Assembly: GCF_009708075.1 (NCBI RefSeq)
Contig: NZ_WMBT01000005.1
Span: 124,001 to 188,000, forward strand
Direction: 5' to 3'
Source: Paracoccus lichenicola
GTDB taxonomy: Bacteria; Pseudomonadota; Alphaproteobacteria; Rhodobacterales; Rhodobacteraceae
Length of the DNA: 64,000 nt
Of this stretch, positions 2,995 to 58,760 are shown piece after piece (the first letter of the stretch is position 1; the number at the start of each line of letters is the position of its first letter). The notes under the pieces are model-generated. The model was not told the origin of the DNA. It worked only from the letters and a program-made list of their open reading frames with translations, and made no database searches. The translations under genes were made by a program, and so were the position numbers.

Positions 2995-4290
2995 ATGCAA
3001 ACCACCTTCACCGCCGAACAGCTTGCCGACCCGCTGACCGCCCGTTCCAACGAGATCCTGCGCACCTGCGTCCATTGCGGCTTCTGCACGGCCACCTGCC
3101 CGACCTACAAGGTTCTGGGCGACGAGTTGGACAGCCCGCGCGGGCGCATCTACCTCATCAAGGACATGCTGGAAAACGCCCGGGTGCCGGATCCCAAGAC
3201 CGTCCAGCATATCGACCGCTGCCTGTCGTGTTTGTCCTGCATGACTACCTGCCCTTCGGGCGTGCATTACATGCATCTGGTCGATCACGCGCGCGAATAC
3301 ATCGAAACCCATTATCGTCGGCCCCTGCCCGACCGCGTTCTGCGCTGGCTCCTGGCGAAGATCCTGCCCTATCCCGGCCGTTTCCGGCTGGCGCTGCGGG
3401 GGGCCAAGCTGGGCCGCCCCCTGCGCCGCCTGATGCCCGACCCGCGGCTGCGGGCCATGCTCGACATGGCCCCGCGCAGCGTCCCGCCCCCCAGCCTCAA
3501 CGACCGCCCGCAGGTCTTTCCGGCCCAGGGACCGCGCCGCAAGCGGGTGGCGCTGCTGACGGGCTGCGCGCAGCGGGCGCTGAACACCGACATCAACGAC
3601 GCCACGGTCCGCCTGCTGCGCCGCCACGGTTGCGACGTGGTGATCCCGCGCGGCATGGGCTGCTGCGGCGCGCTGACCCATCACATGGGCCGCACGGGCG
3701 AAAGCCACGCCTTCGCCGCGGCCAACATCCGCGCCGTGATGGCCGAGGTGAACGGCGACGGCCTGGACGCCCTGGTCATCAACACCTCGGGCTGCGGGAC
3801 GACCGTCAAGGACTACGGTCCCATGTTCGCGGGCGGCCCGCTGGAAGCCGACGCCGCCCGCGTGGCGCGCCTGGCCAAGGACATCACCGAGGTCATGGCC
3901 GACCTGGGCCTGACGGATGCGACCCACGCCCCGCCCTTGCGCGTCGGCTATCACGCCGCCTGTTCCTTGCAGCACGGCCAAGGGATCAAGGCCGCGCCCA
4001 AGGAGTTGCTGGCGGATGCGGGCTTCACCGTGCTGGAACCCAGGGACAGCCATATCTGCTGCGGATCGGCCGGCACCTATAACCTCATGCAGCCCGCCAT
4101 CAGCGCCGAACTGAAGGCCCGCAAGGTGGCGACGCTGGAGGCCACCAAGCCCCAGGTCATCAGCGCCGGGAACATTGGCTGCATGATGCAGATCGGATCG
4201 GGCACCGGCGTTCCCGTCGTCCACACGGCCGAACTGCTGGACTGGGCCACCGGCGGGCCAAGGCCCAAGGCGCTGCACGGCCTAGCGTAA
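2995..4290 (+). CDS. glcF: Glycolate oxidase iron-sulfur subunit GlcF
   Basis: 431 aa. Electron-transfer subunit of glycolate oxidase. Two 4Fe-4S ferredoxin motifs are near the N-terminus: CVHCGFCTATCPTYK (about residue 23) and CLSCLSCMTTCPSG (about residue 77). Two CCG domains follow, with GCCGALTHHMGR and HICCGSAGTYNLMQP, as in heterodisulfide reductase-type subunits. There are no obvious membrane helices, so association with the membrane is probably peripheral. Last gene of the glcDEF operon; no clear terminator follows. Confidence 0.92.
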   Translation: MQTTFTAEQLADPLTARSNEILRTCVHCGFCTATCPTYKVLGDELDSPRGRIYLIKDMLENARVPDPKTVQHIDRCLSCLSCMTTCPSGVHYMHLVDHAREYIETHYRRPLPDRVLRWLLAKILPYPGRFRLALRGAKLGRPLRRLMPDPRLRAMLDMAPRSVPPPSLNDRPQVFPAQGPRRKRVALLTGCAQRALNTDINDATVRLLRRHGCDVVIPRGMGCCGALTHHMGRTGESHAFAAANIRAVMAEVNGDGLDALVINTSGCGTTVKDYGPMFAGGPLEADAARVARLAKDITEVMADLGLTDATHAPPLRVGYHAACSLQHGQGIKAAPKELLADAGFTVLEPRDSHICCGSAGTYNLMQPAISAELKARKVATLEATKPQVISAGNIGCMMQIGSGTGVPVVHTAELLDWATGGPRPKALHGLA

Positions 4291-6089: not shown

Positions 6090-7057
6090 CCCCAATAGGC
6101 GGCGGCCATGAAATCCTTGCGGTCGATGCCGCGCGCGATCAGGTGCTGGCGCGCCTGACGGGCCTGCCCTGCCTCGGCCGCGAACCAGACGAAGCTTCCC
6201 TGGCCCAGGTCGGCCCCGGCCAGGGCCGCCAGCAGGTCGTCGCAGCGGGTCACGCGCGGATCGGCGGCCAGCGGTCCCAGGTCGGGAAAGCCCGCACGGA
6301 CATGGGCCGAAACCTCGCCCCTTGCCAGATCCAGCATCCGGGCGATGGCGGGCAGCGCGGTTTCGTCCCCGAACAGGTGCAGCCGGTCCGCCTCGGGGCA
6401 CCAGCCGCCGCCGGGACCGATGATGGCGACCTCGGCCCCTTCCGGCCCGGACAGCGCCCAATCGCAGGTCGGGCTGCCCGCATGGCGGAAGATGTCGAAG
6501 TCCAGCCAGTCGTCCCCCTGCGCCGCCACCGTATAGACCGGCCGGTGCAGCGCATCCGCCCCGCCCGGCCATTCCGTCCGCCCCGAGGCGCCGGTCCGGG
6601 GCCAGACCGCCGGTCGCCCCGCCGGGGGCAGCAGCAGGCGGAAATGCAGGCTGCCGGCTCCGAAGCGCGCCGCATCCGGCCCGGCCAGCCGCACCCGGAT
6701 GAAGCCCGGCGACCGCTGCGTCACCGACCGCACGCGCATCGGCGACAGGCCCGGCGCCAACGCGCCCGCATCGACGCGGTCCCAGGCGACCTCCAGCCCG
6801 GCCTCGGCGAACAGTTCGGTGGCGCTGTCCTGAAGATTGCCGATCAGCCGCGCCTCGGGGGCCGACAGTTCGATGCGCACCTCGTCGCCCCCCGGCACCA
6901 GGCGCAGTTCGCAGCCCCAGACGAACAGGCTCAGCGCCTCGGGCGATTCCACCAGCGGCACCTCCCACGCGGCGGCGCGGGCCTTGAGCGCCGCCGCAGC
7001 CGCGCCCGAGGCGCGCGGGATGGTGCCGAAATTGCGGTGGCTGCGCAGGTGCGACAT
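6086..7057 (-). CDS. Siderophore-interacting protein (flavin-dependent ferric-siderophore reductase)
   Basis: 323 aa. SIP/ViuB-like family. These cytosolic FAD proteins reduce Fe(III)-siderophores to release iron after import. The FAD_binding_9 domain occupies about residues 80-210 (SPGFIRVRLAGPD; PVYTVAAQGDDWLDFDIFRH, where family members have the RxYT flavin motif), followed by a SIP NAD(P)H domain (LFGDETALPAIARML). About 75 extra N-terminal residues resemble a DUF2218-like segment (SPEALSLFVWGCELRLVPGG; ELSAPEARLIGNLQDSATELF). The gene is divergent from the AraC regulator and its upstream region holds an inverted repeat, which suggests iron- or siderophore-responsive control. Confidence 0.87.
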   Translation of the reverse strand: MSHLRSHRNFGTIPRASGAAAAALKARAAAWEVPLVESPEALSLFVWGCELRLVPGGDEVRIELSAPEARLIGNLQDSATELFAEAGLEVAWDRVDAGALAPGLSPMRVRSVTQRSPGFIRVRLAGPDAARFGAGSLHFRLLLPPAGRPAVWPRTGASGRTEWPGGADALHRPVYTVAAQGDDWLDFDIFRHAGSPTCDWALSGPEGAEVAIIGPGGGWCPEADRLHLFGDETALPAIARMLDLARGEVSAHVRAGFPDLGPLAADPRVTRCDDLLAALAGADLGQGSFVWFAAEAGQARQARQHLIARGIDRKDFMAAAYWG

Positions 7058-25609: not shown

Positions 25610-26539
25610 ATGAACAGCCATTCCAGCACCGGCCTTGCCCCGGCGACCCTGACGCATTTGCAGCGTCTCGAAGCCGAAAGCATCCACATCATGCGCGAGG
25701 TGGTGGCGAATGCCGAAAACCCGGTGATGCTGTATTCGGTGGGCAAGGATTCCGCCTGCATGTTGCACCTGGCGCGCAAGGCCTTTTACCCCGCGCCGCC
25801 CCCCTTTCCGCTGCTGCACGTGGACACGACCTGGAAGTTCCGGGCGATGTACGAGTTGCGCGACCGCGCGGCCCGGGCGGCGGGCATGGACCTGATCGTC
25901 CACCACAACCCAGAGGCGATGGAACAGGGCATCAACCCCTTCGACCACGGCCCCATGCACACCGACATGTGGAAGACCGAGGGGCTGAAGCAGGCGCTGA
26001 CCCAATACAACTTCGACGTGGCCTTCGGCGGCGCGCGGCGCGACGAGGAAAAGTCCCGCGCCAAGGAACGAATCTTCTCGTTCCGGTCCGCGAACCACCG
26101 CTGGGATCCCAAGAACCAGCGGCCCGAGCTGTGGAAGCTTTACAACACCCGCAAGGCCAAGGACGAATCGATCCGGGTCTTTCCGCTGTCGAACTGGACG
26201 GAACTGGACATCTGGCAATACATCCACCTGGAAGGCATCGAGATCGTGCCGCTGTATTTCAGCGAACCCCGCCCGGTGGTGGAACGCGACGGGCTGCTGA
26301 TCATGGTCGATGACGACCGCTTCCCGCTGAAGGACGGCGAGACCCCGCAGATGCGGTCGGTCCGGTTCCGCACGCTGGGCTGCTATCCCTTGACCGGCGC
26401 GGTGGAATCCGAGGCCAGCACCCTGCCCGAGGTGATCCAGGAAATGCTGCTGACCACCACGTCCGAACGCCAGGGCCGCGCCATCGACAAGGACCAGGCC
26501 GCGTCCATGGAGAAGAAGAAGCAAGAGGGGTATTTCTGA
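25610..26539 (+). CDS. cysD: Sulfate adenylyltransferase subunit 2 (CysD)
   Basis: 309 aa. Small catalytic subunit of ATP sulfurylase, making adenosine 5'-phosphosulfate (APS) from ATP and sulfate. PAPS-reductase-like fold with the pyrophosphate loop [18 protein letters not shown] (about residue 43), [20 protein letters not shown] and [14 protein letters not shown]. The C-terminal EKKKQEGYF is a family signature. The ATG at 25610 follows AGAGAG. Its stop shares a base with the cysNC start (TGATG), so the two subunits are co-translated. Confidence 0.96.
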
Positions 26540-28452
26540 TGAACGCGCAGGATCCCGTTTACGTCACCGATGCCCTGATCGCCCAGGACATCGACGCCTA
26601 TCTGCTGAAGCACCAGCACAAGACCATGCTGCGCTTCATCACCTGCGGGTCGGTCGATGACGGCAAATCGACGCTGATCGGCCGGCTGCTTTACGACAGC
26701 AAGATGATCTTCGAGGACCAGCTGGCCTCGCTGGAAGCCGACAGCAAGGTGTCGGGCACGCAAGGCGGGGAAATCGACTTCGCCCTGCTGGTCGACGGCC
26801 TGGCCGCGGAACGCGAACAGGGCATCACCATCGACGTGGCCTATCGCTTCTTCGCCACCGACAAGCGCAAGTTCATCGTGGCCGACACGCCGGGCCATGA
26901 ACAATACACCCGCAACATGGTCACGGGCGCATCCACCGCCGACCTGGCGGTAATCCTGATCGACGCGCGCCAGGGCGTGCTGACCCAGACCCGGCGGCAT
27001 TCCTATCTGGTGAACCTGCTGGGCATCAAGAATGTCGTGCTGGCGGTCAACAAGATGGACCTGGTCGATTACTCGGCCGAGCGGTTCTACGAGATCGTCA
27101 CCGAATACAGCCATTTCGCCAAGCAGATCGGCATGGACAGCTTCCTGCCGATCCCGATTTCCGGGCTGAAGGGCGACAACATCGTCAGCAAAAGCCCGGA
27201 CATGCACTGGTACCAGGGACCGACGCTGCTGGGCCATCTGGAGGAAGCGCCGGTCAACGACACGGCGATGCAGGACCGCCCGTTCCGCATGGCCGTGCAA
27301 TGGGTGAACCGCCCGCACCTGGATTTCCGCGGCTTCGCGGGCCAGATCAGCGCGGGCGCCGTCCATCCCGGCGATCCGGTGCGCGTCCTGCCCTCGGGCA
27401 AGGTCACGACCGTCAAGTCCATCGCGACCTTCGACGGCGACCTGCCCCAGGCCGTCGCGGGCCAGTCCGTGACCCTGACCTTCACGGACGAGATCGACTG
27501 TTCGCGCGGCGACGTGATCGTGCAGGCCGACGCGCCTTGCGAGGTCGCCGACCAGTTCGAGGCCACCCTGGTCTGGATGGCGGAATCCGAAATGCTGCCG
27601 GGCCGTCCCTATCTGCTCAAGATCGGCACGCAGACCGTCAGCGCCACCATCACCGAGCCGAAATACGAGGTGAACGTCAACACGACCGAACATCTGGCCA
27701 GCAAGACGCTGGGCCTCAATGCCATCGGCGTGGTCAACATCTCGACCGACCGGCCCGTCCCGTTCGAGGCTTACGGCGACAACCCCGACCTGGGCGGCTT
27801 CATCCTGATCGACCGGATGACGAACGCCACCATCGCCGCCGGGATGCTGCATTTCGCGCTGCGCCGGTCGCAGAACATCCACTGGCAATCGACCGACGTG
27901 AACCGTGACGCCCACGCGGCGCAGAAGAACCAGCGCGCCAAGGTCGTCTGGTTCACCGGCCTGTCGGGTTCGGGCAAATCGACCATCGCCAATATCGTGG
28001 AACGCAAGCTGCACGCGATGGGCAAGCACACCTTCCTGCTGGACGGCGACAACGTGCGCCACGGGCTGAACCGCGACCTGGGCTTCACCGATGCCGACCG
28101 GGTGGAAAACGTTCGCCGCGTGGGCGAGGTCGCGAAGCTGATGACGGACGCGGGCCTGATCGTGCTGACGGCCTTCATCTCGCCCTTCCGGGCGGAACGG
28201 CGGATGGTCCGCGACATGATGGCCCCCGGCGAATTCCTGGAAGTCTATGTGGACACGCCCCTGGAGGTGGCCGAGCAGCGCGACGTGAAGGGCCTCTACA
28301 AGAAGGCGCGGTCCGGCCAGCTGAAGAACTTCACCGGCATCGACAGCCCCTACGAGGCGCCCGAACAGGCCGAGCTGGTGGTCAACACCGTGGCCCTCTC
28401 GGCCGAGGAAGCCGCCGACCGCGTGGTCGAGGCGATCCTGTCCCAAGGCTGA
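26539..28452 (+). CDS. cysNC: Bifunctional sulfate adenylyltransferase GTPase subunit / APS kinase (CysN-CysC fusion)
   Basis: 637 aa. Residues ~1-455 are the CysN GTPase, with [21 protein letters not shown] and NKMD, which drives APS synthesis by GTP hydrolysis. Residues ~465-637 are an APS kinase with its own P-loop GLSGSGKST (about residue 474), [16 protein letters not shown] and [11 protein letters not shown], which makes PAPS. NodQ-like fusions of this type are common in alphaproteobacteria. PAPS feeds either cysteine synthesis or sulfation; no reductase gene is nearby to decide. Confidence 0.96.
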
Positions 28453-28473: not shown

Positions 28474-28510
28474 AAAGGGGCATCCGGCAGAACCCGCCGG
28501 GTGCCCCTTT
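28474..28510. terminator. Bidirectional terminator between cysNC and the DUF2218 gene
   Basis: AAAGGGGCA (28474-28482) pairs with TGCCCCTTT (28502-28510), continued inward by CCGGC/GCCGG, giving about 15 bp around a 7-base loop. It lies between two convergent genes. Confidence 0.75.
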
Positions 28511-28550
28511 GCCTTTCGGGAACCGGGCCGGCGGCAGCCGGACATGGCCT

Positions 28551-28850
28551 TCAGGCTGCAGGCTGCCAGTCCATCCGGGTGAACGCCTCGCGAAAGGCGA
28601 AGCGCGCCAGATGGCTGTCGATGATGCCTTGCAGGCGTTCCACGGCCGCCGCATCCGCGCCCGCGACGGTGCATTGCAGATCCCCGTCCCGAGCGACCAG
28701 CCGCGCCTGGCCGATCTCGAAGGTGATGAGGCCCTCGTTCCCCTGAACCGTGGCGGGGATCTTGTGGGCGAAATGCTTGCAAAGCTGCGTCATGTAGCCT
28801 TGGGCGTTGCGGGTCGCGAAGTGGCCGGTGCTGCCGGGTTCGATGCTCAT
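28551..28850 (-). CDS. DUF2218 domain protein
   Basis: 99 aa. Matches the DUF2218 pattern: GHFATRNAQGYMTQLCKHFA, then FEIGQARLVARDGDLQCTVA and a C-terminal helix FAFREAFTRMDWQPA. Family members are small cytosolic proteins, often beside or fused to siderophore-interacting reductases; the biochemical role is unknown. The similar segment at the N-terminus of the SIP protein at 6086-7057 in this window supports that link. Start MSIEPG is preferred; an in-frame ATG nine codons upstream is possible. Confidence 0.8.
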   Translation of the reverse strand: MSIEPGSTGHFATRNAQGYMTQLCKHFAHKIPATVQGNEGLITFEIGQARLVARDGDLQCTVAGADAAAVERLQGIIDSHLARFAFREAFTRMDWQPAA

Positions 28851-28968
28851 CGGGCTTGTCCTGATCTGTCGTGGCATGTGCCCGCAACAGGCCCCGGCGG
28901 CCTGCGCTTGTCAATTCGCGGGACGGTTGCCAGGGGGTTGACGTTTTCGTCAGCCCGCCGGATCCGCC

Positions 28969-28993
28969 GGAACCCGGCAAGTCGTCACACGTT
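28969..28993 (+). promoter_or_regulatory. Consensus EcfG (general stress) promoter with no protein gene downstream
   Basis: GGAAC (28969-28973), 16 bases, CGTT (28990-28993): an exact match to the alphaproteobacterial EcfG promoter. It points rightward into a gap where both flanking genes are on the other strand. A terminator-like hairpin follows about 45 bases after the -10 element. Confidence 0.65.
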
Positions 28994-28999
28994 GGCTGC

Positions 29000-29066
29000 G
29001 CGAAGTGAAATCGCTTCCGTGCAACGGCTTAACGAGTCTGCCCGCCATCGTCATGGCGGGCATTTC
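29000..29066 (+). ncRNA. Predicted EcfG-dependent small RNA (~67 nt)
   Basis: Predicted from an exact EcfG promoter immediately upstream and a terminator-like hairpin at its end. Within it GAAGTG/CGCTTC with an AAAT loop forms a 5' stem (one G-U pair), a single-stranded middle (CGTGCAACGGCTTAACGAGT) follows, and the terminal hairpin TGCCCGCCAT/ATGGCGGGCA ends in TTT. No ribosome site or closed small frame is evident: a GTG frame inside it runs through the terminator. The start of transcription is estimated at 6-8 bases after the -10 element. Stress sRNAs of this kind (for example GsrN in Caulobacter) exist, but I see no sequence similarity that I can claim. Confidence 0.5.
29039..29065 (+). 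terminator. Terminator-like hairpin ending the predicted sRNA
   Basis: TGCCCGCCAT (29039-29048) and ATGGCGGGCA (29053-29062), a perfect 10-bp stem with loop CGTC, followed by TTT. The T-run is on the plus-strand side, favouring rightward termination, though it may also serve the CAP-RTX gene ending at 29087. Confidence 0.6.
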
Positions 29067-29086
29067 GCCCATGCAGCGGGGCGATG

Positions 29087-30346
29087 TCAGAACCCGAAGA
29101 TGTCGTTGGCCACTCCCTCCACCGTCAGGGTCTGGCCCGCGACAAGGATCCGGTCGCCGCCGCCAAGGTCGATAACGATGCCTGCCGCGGTCCGGGCCAT
29201 GTGATCGCGCATGAAGACGGCCGGATCGGCGTCCAGCCGGTCGGCGTCGATGATCAGCCGGTCGATGCCGTGCTGATAGCCCTGGACCGTGTCGGCCCCG
29301 CTGCCGATGGAAAAGACGAAGCTGTCCGCCCCTGCCCCGCCGTTCAGCAGGTCACGGCCCGCGCCGCCCCGCAGCATGTCGTTGCCCTCGCCGCCCGACA
29401 GGGTGTCGTGGCCCGCATCGCCGCTCAGCCAGTCATTGCCGGTCCCGCCGGCCAGGACATCGTTGCCCAAGCCCCCCAGCAGGCGGTCGCTGCCATCCGC
29501 CGCCCACAGGCTGTCATTGCCCGCATCCCCCCACAGCATGTCGTTTCCGGTCCCGCCGGAAAGACGATCAAGCCCGTCGCCGCCCTGCAGGGTGTCGTTC
29601 CCCGGGCCGCCGTCCAGGACATCGGACCCCCCGGCGCCGATCAGCCGGTCATGCCCTGCCGCACCTCGCAGGATGTCGTTGCCCGCCCGGCCCGCCACCC
29701 AGTCGTTGCCATCCCCGGCGGCAACCGAATCGTTCCCTGCGCCCAGCCGGTAATCGTCATTGCGCGCCGTACCCGGGGCGTCGGCCGCAAAGGCCCGGCC
29801 GTCGAAGCCCTGTTCCCAGGCCGCCCGCGTCTGCATGGCCGTGTTCGGCTGCGGCTCGGCCACCCGCAGGAAGCTGCCGTTGTCCAGGCGCAGCTGCCCG
29901 TCGGTGTCGGCAAAGTTCTGCGTCGCCATCAGCACCTTGTAGTCGCGGCCTCCGACGGTCATGAAGCCGACCTCCAGCCCGATGCCGACAAAGGCCGCGT
30001 CGCCCATGATGTTGGCGCGATGGCCCGGGCTGTTCATCAGGTTCTGGTGCAGCTGGCGGATTTCGTCGCGCAGGTCGCCCTCGCCCCGGATGCTGACATA
30101 GGCGATGTTCTCGGCCGTCATCCACGACCCGGCCAGATCGAAGCGCGCAGCCTCGATCCGTTCGCGCGCCGAGGATCCGCCCTGCCCCGTGTGGGAAAAG
30201 ACATCCGCGTTCAGCATCCAGCGGCTATGCGCCCCCGAGGAATCGTTGAGGCGCTTTTCCAGGGTCAGCGGCGCCAGCCCCTCGGCCCGGCGGGCCTGGT
30301 TGACCAGGGTGGCGAAGTAACGCTCGTCGGCGCTGGCATGGGACAT
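29087..30346 (-). CDS. CAP-domain protein with RTX calcium-binding repeats
   Basis: 419 aa. An N-terminal CAP (SCP/PR1-like) domain, residues ~5-140, shows FATLVNQARRAEGLAPLTLE, DVFSHTGQGG, AENIAY and LMNSPGHRANIMGDAAFVGI. Residues ~165-345 are RTX repeats (GGAGRDLLNGGAGADSFVFS type), followed by a C-terminal capping region. There is no Sec signal, so type I secretion is expected. The function is extracellular and unknown. Upstream lies a near-consensus EcfG promoter with a 15-base spacer. Confidence 0.87.
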   Translation of the reverse strand: MSHASADERYFATLVNQARRAEGLAPLTLEKRLNDSSGAHSRWMLNADVFSHTGQGGSSARERIEAARFDLAGSWMTAENIAYVSIRGEGDLRDEIRQLHQNLMNSPGHRANIMGDAAFVGIGLEVGFMTVGGRDYKVLMATQNFADTDGQLRLDNGSFLRVAEPQPNTAMQTRAAWEQGFDGRAFAADAPGTARNDDYRLGAGNDSVAAGDGNDWVAGRAGNDILRGAAGHDRLIGAGGSDVLDGGPGNDTLQGGDGLDRLSGGTGNDMLWGDAGNDSLWAADGSDRLLGGLGNDVLAGGTGNDWLSGDAGHDTLSGGEGNDMLRGGAGRDLLNGGAGADSFVFSIGSGADTVQGYQHGIDRLIIDADRLDADPAVFMRDHMARTAAGIVIDLGGGDRILVAGQTLTVEGVANDIFGF

Positions 30347-57100: not shown

Positions 57101-57667
57101 CTAGCGGGCGATGGTGTGGCTGGACGCCATCACGGCCAGGGTCGCCTGATCGGTCATGTCCAGTTCCTCACCGTTTTCCAGATGCAGAAGTTCCGCAAGC
57201 TTGCGGCGCCCGCGATTGGCCCGCGACTTGACGGTGCCGATGGCGACCCCGGTCATGTCGGCCGCTTCCTCGTAGGAAAAGCCGGACGCGCCCACCAGGA
57301 TCAGCGCCTCGCGCTGTTCGTCGGGCAGCTGTGCGAAGGCCACCCGGAAATCCTTGAGAGCAAGACGCCCGTCATGTTCGGGGCGCGTGGCCTGGCGGGC
57401 GGCATGGATGCCGTCGCTGTCGCTGACCTCGCGCTTGGTCTTGCGGCGGGCCGAATAGAAGGTGTTGCGCAGGATCGTGAACAGCCAGGCGCGCAGGTTG
57501 GTGCCGGCCTGGAACTTGTCCATGTTGGTCCAGGCCTTGACGATGGTGTCCTGGACGAGATCGTCGGCGGCCGCCCCTTCGCGCGTCAAGGACAAGGCAA
57601 AGGCGCGCAGCGCCGGCAGGTGGTCCACCAGCTGGTCGCGCGGATCCGTCATCGCGGATTTCTTCAT
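57101..57667 (-). CDS. ecfG: General stress ECF sigma factor EcfG
   Basis: 188 aa. ECF sigma factor of the EcfG (ECF15) group: region 2 DPRDQLVDHLPALRAFALSL and LVQDTIVKAWTNMDKF; region 4 LPDEQREALILVGASGFSYE and IGTVKSRANRGRRKLAELL. It directs RNA polymerase to GGAAC-N16/17-CGTT promoters when NepR is titrated by phosphorylated PhyR. Starts at 57682 (GTG), 57667 (ATG) and 57652 (ATG, MTDPRDQ) are all possible; 57667 is used. It lies 42 bases after nepR in the same operon. Confidence 0.93.
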   Translation of the reverse strand: MKKSAMTDPRDQLVDHLPALRAFALSLTREGAAADDLVQDTIVKAWTNMDKFQAGTNLRAWLFTILRNTFYSARRKTKREVSDSDGIHAARQATRPEHDGRLALKDFRVAFAQLPDEQREALILVGASGFSYEEAADMTGVAIGTVKSRANRGRRKLAELLHLENGEELDMTDQATLAVMASSHTIAR

Positions 57668-57709: not shown

Positions 57710-57856
57710 TCACTTCTGCTCGCGCAGTTGGTCAAGAAGGGCAAGAAAACGGTCGGGAATCTGCTCGGTCACGTCCTGTTCATAGACGCGGCGCAGATTC
57801 TCGTCGATCTGCTTCTCGACTGCCGCCTTGCGGCGATCATCTCGCTTCGATGTCAT
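57710..57856 (-). CDS. nepR: Anti-sigma factor NepR
   Basis: 48 aa, at the short end for NepR. It has the two conserved helices: VEKQIDENLRRVYEQDVTEQ and IPDRFLALLDQLRE. It binds EcfG and blocks it; phosphorylated PhyR captures NepR and frees the sigma factor. The ATG at 57856 is preferred, because the longer frame would run into the promoter shared with phyR. First gene of nepR-ecfG-kinase. Confidence 0.92.
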   Translation of the reverse strand: MTSKRDDRRKAAVEKQIDENLRRVYEQDVTEQIPDRFLALLDQLREQK

Positions 57857-57895: not shown

Positions 57896-57921
57896 AACCT
57901 GTAGGGGTTGGGATAGGTTCC
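57896..57921 (-). promoter_or_regulatory. EcfG-type promoter of the nepR-ecfG operon (autoregulation)
   Basis: Minus strand: GGAAC (57921-57917), 17 bases, GGTT (one mismatch to CGTT; GTT at 57898-57896), 40 bases before the nepR start. This agrees with the known positive autoregulation of ecfG operons in alphaproteobacteria. Confidence 0.75.
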
Positions 57922-57953: not shown

Positions 57954-58760
57954 ATGTCGTCAGCCGACCTGGCCCAATCCATCGGGCGCGAGCTGCCCTA
58001 TCTGCGCCGCTATGCGCGTGCGCTGACCGGCAGCCAGCGCGCCGGTGACAATTATGCCGCAGCCACCCTGGAAGCCATCCTGTCTGACCGGTCGATCCTG
58101 CAAGAAGAAGACGATACCCGCATCGGGCTGTTCCGCACCTTCCACGCGATCTGGCAAAGCTCGGGCCAGCCGGTGGACGACGGCGACCGCAGCGCCCGCG
58201 AGATGCGCGCCCAGGACCACTTGCGCGGCCTGACCGCCAATTCGCGCGAGGCCCTGCTGCTGCGCACGATCGAGGAACTGCGCTATGACCAGATCGGGCG
58301 CGTGATGCAGATCGACGCGGCCGAGGCCGAGGAGCTGGTCGGGATCGCGATGTCCGAGATGAGCGCGTCCTTGCGCGGCAAGGTCATGGTGATCGAGGAC
58401 GAGATGATCATCGCCATGGACCTGAAGGGCATCGTGCAGGCCATGGGCCACGAGGTCACGGGCGTGGCCCGCACCCATTCCGCCGCGATCGAACTGGCAA
58501 GCCAGTCCCGCCCCGACCTGATCCTGGCCGATATCCAGCTGGCCGACGGATCGTCGGGCATCGACGCCGTGAACGAGCTGCTGCGCGAGTTGGGCGACAT
58601 CCCGGTGATCTTCATCACAGCCTTCCCCGAACGGCTGCTGACCGGCGAACGGCCCGAACCGGCCTTCCTGATCTCGAAACCCTACAACGAGGAACAGGTG
58701 CGGTCCGCCGTCAGCCAGGCGATGTTCTTCGCCTCGACCGAGGGGCTGGACGCGGCGTAA
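57954..58760 (+). CDS. phyR: General stress response regulator PhyR (sigma-like anti-anti-sigma factor)
   Basis: 268 aa, the typical PhyR length. The N-terminal ~125 residues mimic an ECF sigma factor (LAQSIGRELPYLRRYARALT; LTANSREALLLRTIEELRYD). The C-terminal receiver domain (about 142-265) has acidic residues Glu148/Asp149, phospho-acceptor Asp193 in DLILADIQLADG, and FITAFP/ISKPYN. Phosphorylation exposes the sigma-like part to bind NepR. ATG at 57954 follows AAGGA eight bases upstream. Divergent from nepR-ecfG over 97 bp. Confidence 0.96.
   Translation: MSSADLAQSIGRELPYLRRYARALTGSQRAGDNYAAATLEAILSDRSILQEEDDTRIGLFRTFHAIWQSSGQPVDDGDRSAREMRAQDHLRGLTANSREALLLRTIEELRYDQIGRVMQIDAAEAEELVGIAMSEMSASLRGKVMVIEDEMIIAMDLKGIVQAMGHEVTGVARTHSAAIELASQSRPDLILADIQLADGSSGIDAVNELLRELGDIPVIFITAFPERLLTGERPEPAFLISKPYNEEQVRSAVSQAMFFASTEGLDAA

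Follow-up and report, generated by a model that had tools for sequence, protein, structure and literature searches.

In the 64,000-nucleotide stretch of Paracoccus lichenicola DNA analysed here (the window), the intergenic region between a DUF2218 gene and a gene for a protein with a CAP domain and RTX repeats very probably contains a small RNA (sRNA) gene driven by the sigma factor EcfG. Comparative sequence evidence gives good support for a new, stand-alone gene of the EcfG type, whose product would be a non-coding RNA of about 66-70 nt. An EcfG-dependent sRNA had been inferred in the first-pass annotation, and this reading is now supported by conserved units in 13 of 125 genomes of the genus, by covariation within the predicted terminator, and by the presence of ecfG, nepR, and phyR in the window. 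The features are collected in Table 1.

Table 1. Features of the putative sRNA locus, its neighbours, and the stress regulators in the window
Feature	Positions	Strand	Basis or remark
cysN/C, further upstream	26539-28452	+	same strand as sRNA
DUF2218 gene, divergent neighbour	28551..28877	-	PF09981, E 4.3e-26; beside sRNA in 5/13
Imperfect palindrome TTGACG-TTTT-CGTCAG	28938..28953	.	core ends 16 nt before GGAAC
-35 box GGAAC of EcfG-type promoter	28969..28973	+	sequence; identical in 13/13 strong homologues
-10 box CGTT, spacer 16	28990..28993	+	sequence; NGTT at spacer 16 or 17 in 13/13
Predicted sRNA, about 66-70 nt	28999..29067	+	covariance models R1 and R2; copies in 13/125 genus genomes; fold z -3.77
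5' domain, consensus CGUAGU-NAAAUUGC-N6-GCAA, predicted small hairpin	29000..29024	+	alignment
Segment CUUAACGAGU (core UUANCGAGU), candidate base-pairing seed	29028..29037	+	alignment
Intrinsic-terminator-like hairpin, 10 bp, 4-nt loop, then TTT	29039..29065	+	sequence; pair changes
CAP-domain and RTX-repeat protein gene, convergent neighbour	29087..30346	-	PF00188, PF00353
ecfG, presumed regulator	57101..57667	-	sigma-70 regions 2 and 4; NF009198 'RNA polymerase sigma factor'
nepR, anti-sigma factor	57710..57856	-	PF18557
EcfG-type promoter of nepR-ecfG, GGAAC-N17-GGTT	57896..57921	-	15 loci inspected
phyR, anti-anti-sigma response regulator	57954..58760	+	NF006623, PF22029, PF22233

Conservation of the element in Paracoccus

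When the 125 genomes of the genus were searched with the DUF2218 protein and 30 loci were fetched, five founding loci with promoter, core, and hairpin emerged; these five sequences served to build a covariance model (R1) that covers the transcript but leaves out its promoter. R1 found 13 full-length matches in the 125 genomes, all with an E-value of 8.8e-11 or better; the next match (E 5.8e-5) covered the terminator only. Directly upstream of every one of the 13 full-length copies lies GGAAC-N16/17-NGTT, and this holds for all eight copies that were absent from the model. Only these eight constitute an independent test of the promoter, since the five founders were reached via the neighbouring gene and partly via the promoter motif itself. 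Seventeen weaker R1 matches, examined from a longer list, were set aside as bare terminators on the grounds of their length and the missing promoter, which was present upstream of a single one, in genome G078. A second model built from all 13 copies (R2) retrieved the same 13 again, and among its 13 weaker matches with an E-value of 0.01 or better, the promoter was found in G071 besides G078. The conservation of promoter and hairpin in close relatives, proposed as a check in the first-pass annotation, is thus borne out: in 13 of the 125 genomes, promoter, core, and terminator are all present and in register with one another.

Simpler searches were less informative. A gapped promoter-plus-terminator pattern gave 17 matches in the 125 genomes (12 of the 13 copies and five unrelated sites) versus 22 in the reversed control; consequently, the count says nothing, and what carries weight is solely that 12 of the 17 are homologous. 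A plain DNA search with the 209-base intergenic region, run over 61 genomes that did not include the carrier G114, recovered, apart from the region used as query, only a single match of 46 bases in G023. This search was insensitive, since it missed the carriers G003, G010, G012, and G022, all among the 61.

The count of 13 leaves out two diverged candidates. The one in G071 (locus L146, positions 6516-6588, plus strand) consists of GGAAC-N16-AGTT, UAACGAGU, and a terminator, and it folds well (z -3.83); by eye, the genes on either side of it look transporter-like, and a CAP/RTX gene lies about 2.3 kb away. The one in G078 (locus L147, positions 3810-3880, minus strand) combines the promoter with UAACGAGU, a terminator, and a 5' hairpin of another kind, and it folds no better than its shuffles (z -0.96, with 29 of 200 as good). 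By eye, the ORFs around it appear phage-like.

At a greater distance, a family search of 394 genomes from 393 genera gave weak matches in 11 genomes (12 places) beyond the window's own, none of them with GGAAC-N16/17-NGTT, although one (L091) has a single mismatch in each promoter box. In searches of more than 40 genomes, strict filters applied and no more than the few best candidates of each genome were scored; absences, including the one at the level of the family, are for this reason not firm. When 84,980 species were scanned with the exact core pattern, there were 10 matches, eight of which are in Paracoccus (P. benzoatiresistens, P. subflavus, P. shandongensis, P. sediminis, P. haematequi, P. 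aerius, P. fontiphilus, and P. caeni); all eight have the promoter, and their core is identical to that of eight of the 13 copies. The other two matches are metagenome-assembled genomes and lack the promoter. Given that NepR is found in 123 of the 125 genus genomes and the sRNA in only 13-15, the sRNA is no general component of the stress response.

Promoter and upstream sequence

The GGAAC-N16-CGTT claimed earlier for the plus strand is present at 28969-28993. Within the window, GGAAC-N15..18-CGTT occurs six times versus an expected 1.62, but over the whole genome, GGAAC-N16/17-CGTT occurs 78 times versus 85 for the reversed control, which is chance level. The case for the sRNA consequently rests on conservation, since genome-wide the motif by itself is no more frequent than chance. 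Among the 13 copies, mean pairwise identity is 1.00 in the -35 box and 0.88 in the -10 box versus 0.29 in the spacer; downstream, it is 0.91 in GCAAT and 0.30 in the hairpin loop. Boxes and GCAAT that are kept, with a spacer and a loop that are free, are what a promoter with an RNA behind it should show.

In the Sphingopyxis EcfG regulon, the -10 boxes named in the portion of PMC7083833 available here are CGTT, TGTT, CATT, and GGTT, with CGTT the commonest of 14. AGTT, the -10 box in G077 and in the G071 candidate, is not among the boxes named there. The gene called ecfG here received its name because it stands beside nepR and phyR, and the three genes lie 28 kb from the sRNA in the same window. 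Upstream of nepR-ecfG, GGAAC-N17-GGTT is found at 14 of the 15 loci inspected and GGAAC-N17-TGTT at the remaining one. A strict CGTT pattern misses this promoter.

The palindrome preceding the sRNA promoter is present in full as TTGACGTTTTCGTCAA in G114 and G022, at the same 16-nt distance before GGAAC, and a related sequence can be seen by eye in G112. Measured against shuffled sequences, it is weak (59, 12, and 22 of 200 were equally good in G000, G114, and G022, respectively). Because G022 and G112 do not have the DUF2218 neighbour, this candidate operator may belong to the sRNA promoter.

The predicted transcript

Transcription would start near 28999-29003. The perfect 10-bp hairpin ending in TTT that the first-pass annotation described is indeed there: its arms TGCCCGCCAT and ATGGCGGGCA occupy 29039-29048 and 29053-29062, with TTT at 29063-29065. 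A consensus terminator scan, which requires at least five T in eight bases, did not report this hairpin (the window copy has only three T); in several relatives, the stem is followed by 4-5 T. The window copy of the RNA folds at -30.2 kcal/mol, and none of 200 shuffles was as good; furthermore, all 13 copies fold better than the mean of their own shuffles (z -2.30 to -5.22).

The terminator hairpin is conserved with compensatory changes. In the alignment of 13 sequences, two-sided changes occur at four of the 10 pairs of its stem. Over the whole structure, there are eight cells with two-sided changes versus 2.8 in shuffles, none of 500 shuffles reached as many, and all eight are in the terminator stem. 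In addition, 92.9% of the alignment cells are paired versus 33-51% when the alignment is slid. The number of pair types in the same alignment is not above that of the shuffles.

The 5' domain is less uniform. The 6-bp stem-loop described from the window does appear in the fold of the window's own copy, but eight of the 13 minimum-energy folds give another small hairpin, TTGC/GCAA. All four pairs of the latter can form in 11 of the 13 copies; one pair is broken in the window copy, which has TCGC at the TTGC site and consequently a C-A mismatch, and one in G062. For the window copy, a neighbouring hairpin is predicted instead. The alignment of 13 shows no covariation in TTGC/GCAA, and given that its four pairs hardly vary, covariation gives no proof of this hairpin. 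An extended pairing of CGUAGU with ACUUANCG was discarded, having no support from covariation. Between the 5' domain and the terminator, UUANCGAGU is present in 11 of the 13 aligned copies and has diverged in G147 and G003.

The element had been described as apparently unreported. Within the window, Rfam gave no match at the gathering threshold, and the four sub-threshold matches at 28900-29120 were led by DsrA with 20.5 bits versus the 60 needed. No account of this sRNA was seen in full-text searches of the main articles of open-licence papers.

Neighbouring genes and alternative explanations

Both flanking genes lie on the minus strand, as the first-pass annotation stated. A full CAP/RTX gene directly adjoins the sRNA in convergent orientation in 10 of the 13 carriers; in G127, it is represented only by a 41-residue C-terminal match, and it is displaced by about 0.75 kb in G003 and by about 3.6 kb in G147. 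On the other side, the flanks fetched for 11 of the 13 carriers contain cysN/C, upstream on the strand of the sRNA. The site also falls within a plus-strand ORF of 231 amino acids (28509-29204), most of which runs antisense to the two minus-strand genes; this ORF has no Pfam match and is taken as spurious.

The position of the hairpin raises the question of whether it is anything other than the terminator of the convergent CAP/RTX gene, with the promoter match due to chance. The hairpin starts 24 bases past the CAP/RTX stop codon, it is symmetrical, and the promoter motif by itself occurs at chance level genome-wide; given its symmetry and position, it may also end the CAP/RTX transcript. However, promoter and core are conserved together with the hairpin in all 13 copies, and G003 and G147 retain the whole unit although CAP/RTX is displaced. 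CAP-domain relatives are found in 56 of the 125 genomes at 61 places, of which 30 were examined, 12 from the 13 carriers and 18 from elsewhere (one of these being G078). At none of the 18 does a convergent GGAAC-N16/17-NGTT lie directly behind the gene; two of them have an unrelated match to this motif about 590-603 bases away. The element is consequently seen as a unit of its own, since it is kept where CAP/RTX is displaced and no such promoter stands behind the 18 other genes, and its being solely a CAP/RTX terminator is highly improbable. The same layout could instead produce a cis-antisense RNA, if EcfG-dependent transcription were to read through a weak terminator into the 3' end of CAP/RTX and lower its expression under stress. 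The convergent arrangement with a full gene in 10 of 13, as well as the mere TTT after the stem in the window, would suit such an RNA, but several relatives have the longer T run noted above, the arrangement is lost in G003 and G147, and antisense action needs no conserved core upstream of the terminator. This explanation is regarded as very unlikely.

Two further alternatives concern the sigma factor and the product. Use of the promoter by another ECF or heat-shock sigma factor would agree with the nearly invariant AAC of the -35 box, a trait reported for ECF factors (PMC7083833). It is nevertheless very unlikely, because the spacing and most of the -10 boxes (CGTT, TGTT) fit EcfG promoters, the same paper names CGTT, TGTT, CATT, and GGTT for EcfG-dependent promoters, and the nepR-ecfG operon has a promoter of the same type. 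That the transcript encodes a tiny protein is barely conceivable: there are start codons inside it, but no start, frame, and stop are common to the 13 copies. The frames contained in it are 1-11 amino acids long, each occurring in few of the sequences, and the others overrun the terminator at varied lengths.

A proposed model for the sRNA in the stress response

For the EcfG-driven sRNA gene favoured here, the following model is proposed. Under stress, PhyR would bind NepR and EcfG would be freed, whereupon RNA polymerase with EcfG would initiate behind GGAAC-N16-CGTT and the transcript would terminate at the hairpin. The predicted RNA consists of a 5' hairpin, an exposed and conserved UUANCGAGU, and the terminator. 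It is rather likely that the sRNA acts in trans by pairing; UUANCGAGU would be the part that pairs with mRNAs, probably with Hfq, and the sRNA would in this way add a post-transcriptional arm to the stress response. A search for complements of the seed covered 11 of the 13 carriers, all except G147 and G003, whose segment differs. It gave one match in each of nine genomes, always the sRNA itself, and none in the other two; the reversed control gave five matches. Predicted pairing of the sRNA with the nepR leader is weak, with energies of -4.7 to -10.4 kcal/mol, obtained without a shuffle control, at inconsistent positions.

A wider evolutionary reading is offered tentatively. The sRNA may be clade-specific, not descended from the Caulobacter sRNA GsrN, and separately recruited to the EcfG regulon of some Paracoccus species, with a fixed UUANCGAGU behind a replaceable 5' hairpin and, in some species, a second input via the upstream palindrome. 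The different 5' hairpin folded in G078 bears on the idea that this hairpin is replaceable. If separate recruitment is correct, the alphaproteobacterial stress response has gained sRNA arms more than once.

Comparison with known systems

GsrN is an EcfG-controlled sRNA with demonstrated function: an intergenic Caulobacter RNA of about 100-106 nt, with an exposed C-rich 5' loop and an intrinsic terminator, which the EcfG-type general stress sigma factor controls through a GGAAC/CGTT promoter (PMC5869019). It is processed to a stable 5' fragment, katG is a target, and its homologues are typically near the GSR locus (PMC5869019). The putative Paracoccus sRNA shares with GsrN the GGAAC/CGTT promoter, the intergenic position, and a predicted intrinsic terminator. 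Like the GsrN homologues, it tends to be near the stress regulators: in 11 of the 13 genomes, it shares a contig with nepR at a distance of about 26-33 kb, and G022 and G077 have the sRNA and nepR on separate contigs. However, at about 66-70 nt it is shorter than GsrN, the C-rich 5' loop is absent in 12 of the 13 copies (G010 has CCCACC), and a conserved segment of its own, UUANCGAGU, sets it apart from GsrN as described in that publication.

GsrN-like candidates in the Rhizobiaceae were chosen because they are transcribed from intergenic regions, have the promoter, and lie close to the GSR locus, and they have an exposed C-rich loop (PMC5869019). The Paracoccus sRNA resembles them in its EcfG-type promoter and intergenic position, but it lacks such a loop in 12 of 13 copies and is known here from sequence alone. 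Within the genus, 167 putative sRNAs, some of them intergenic, have been listed for Paracoccus denitrificans under denitrifying and aerobic growth (PMC5107571), a set with which the present sRNA was compared by description only. EcfG is not mentioned in the main text of that paper, and P. denitrificans is not among the species named as having the core in the scan of 84,980 species. For the order as a whole, a report on PhyR of R. sphaeroides states that the role of PhyR in stress had previously been unanalysed in any member of the Rhodobacterales (PMC5830050). Set beside GsrN, a defined Paracoccus sRNA would make it possible to test directly if sRNA arms are general in the EcfG response or have been acquired repeatedly.
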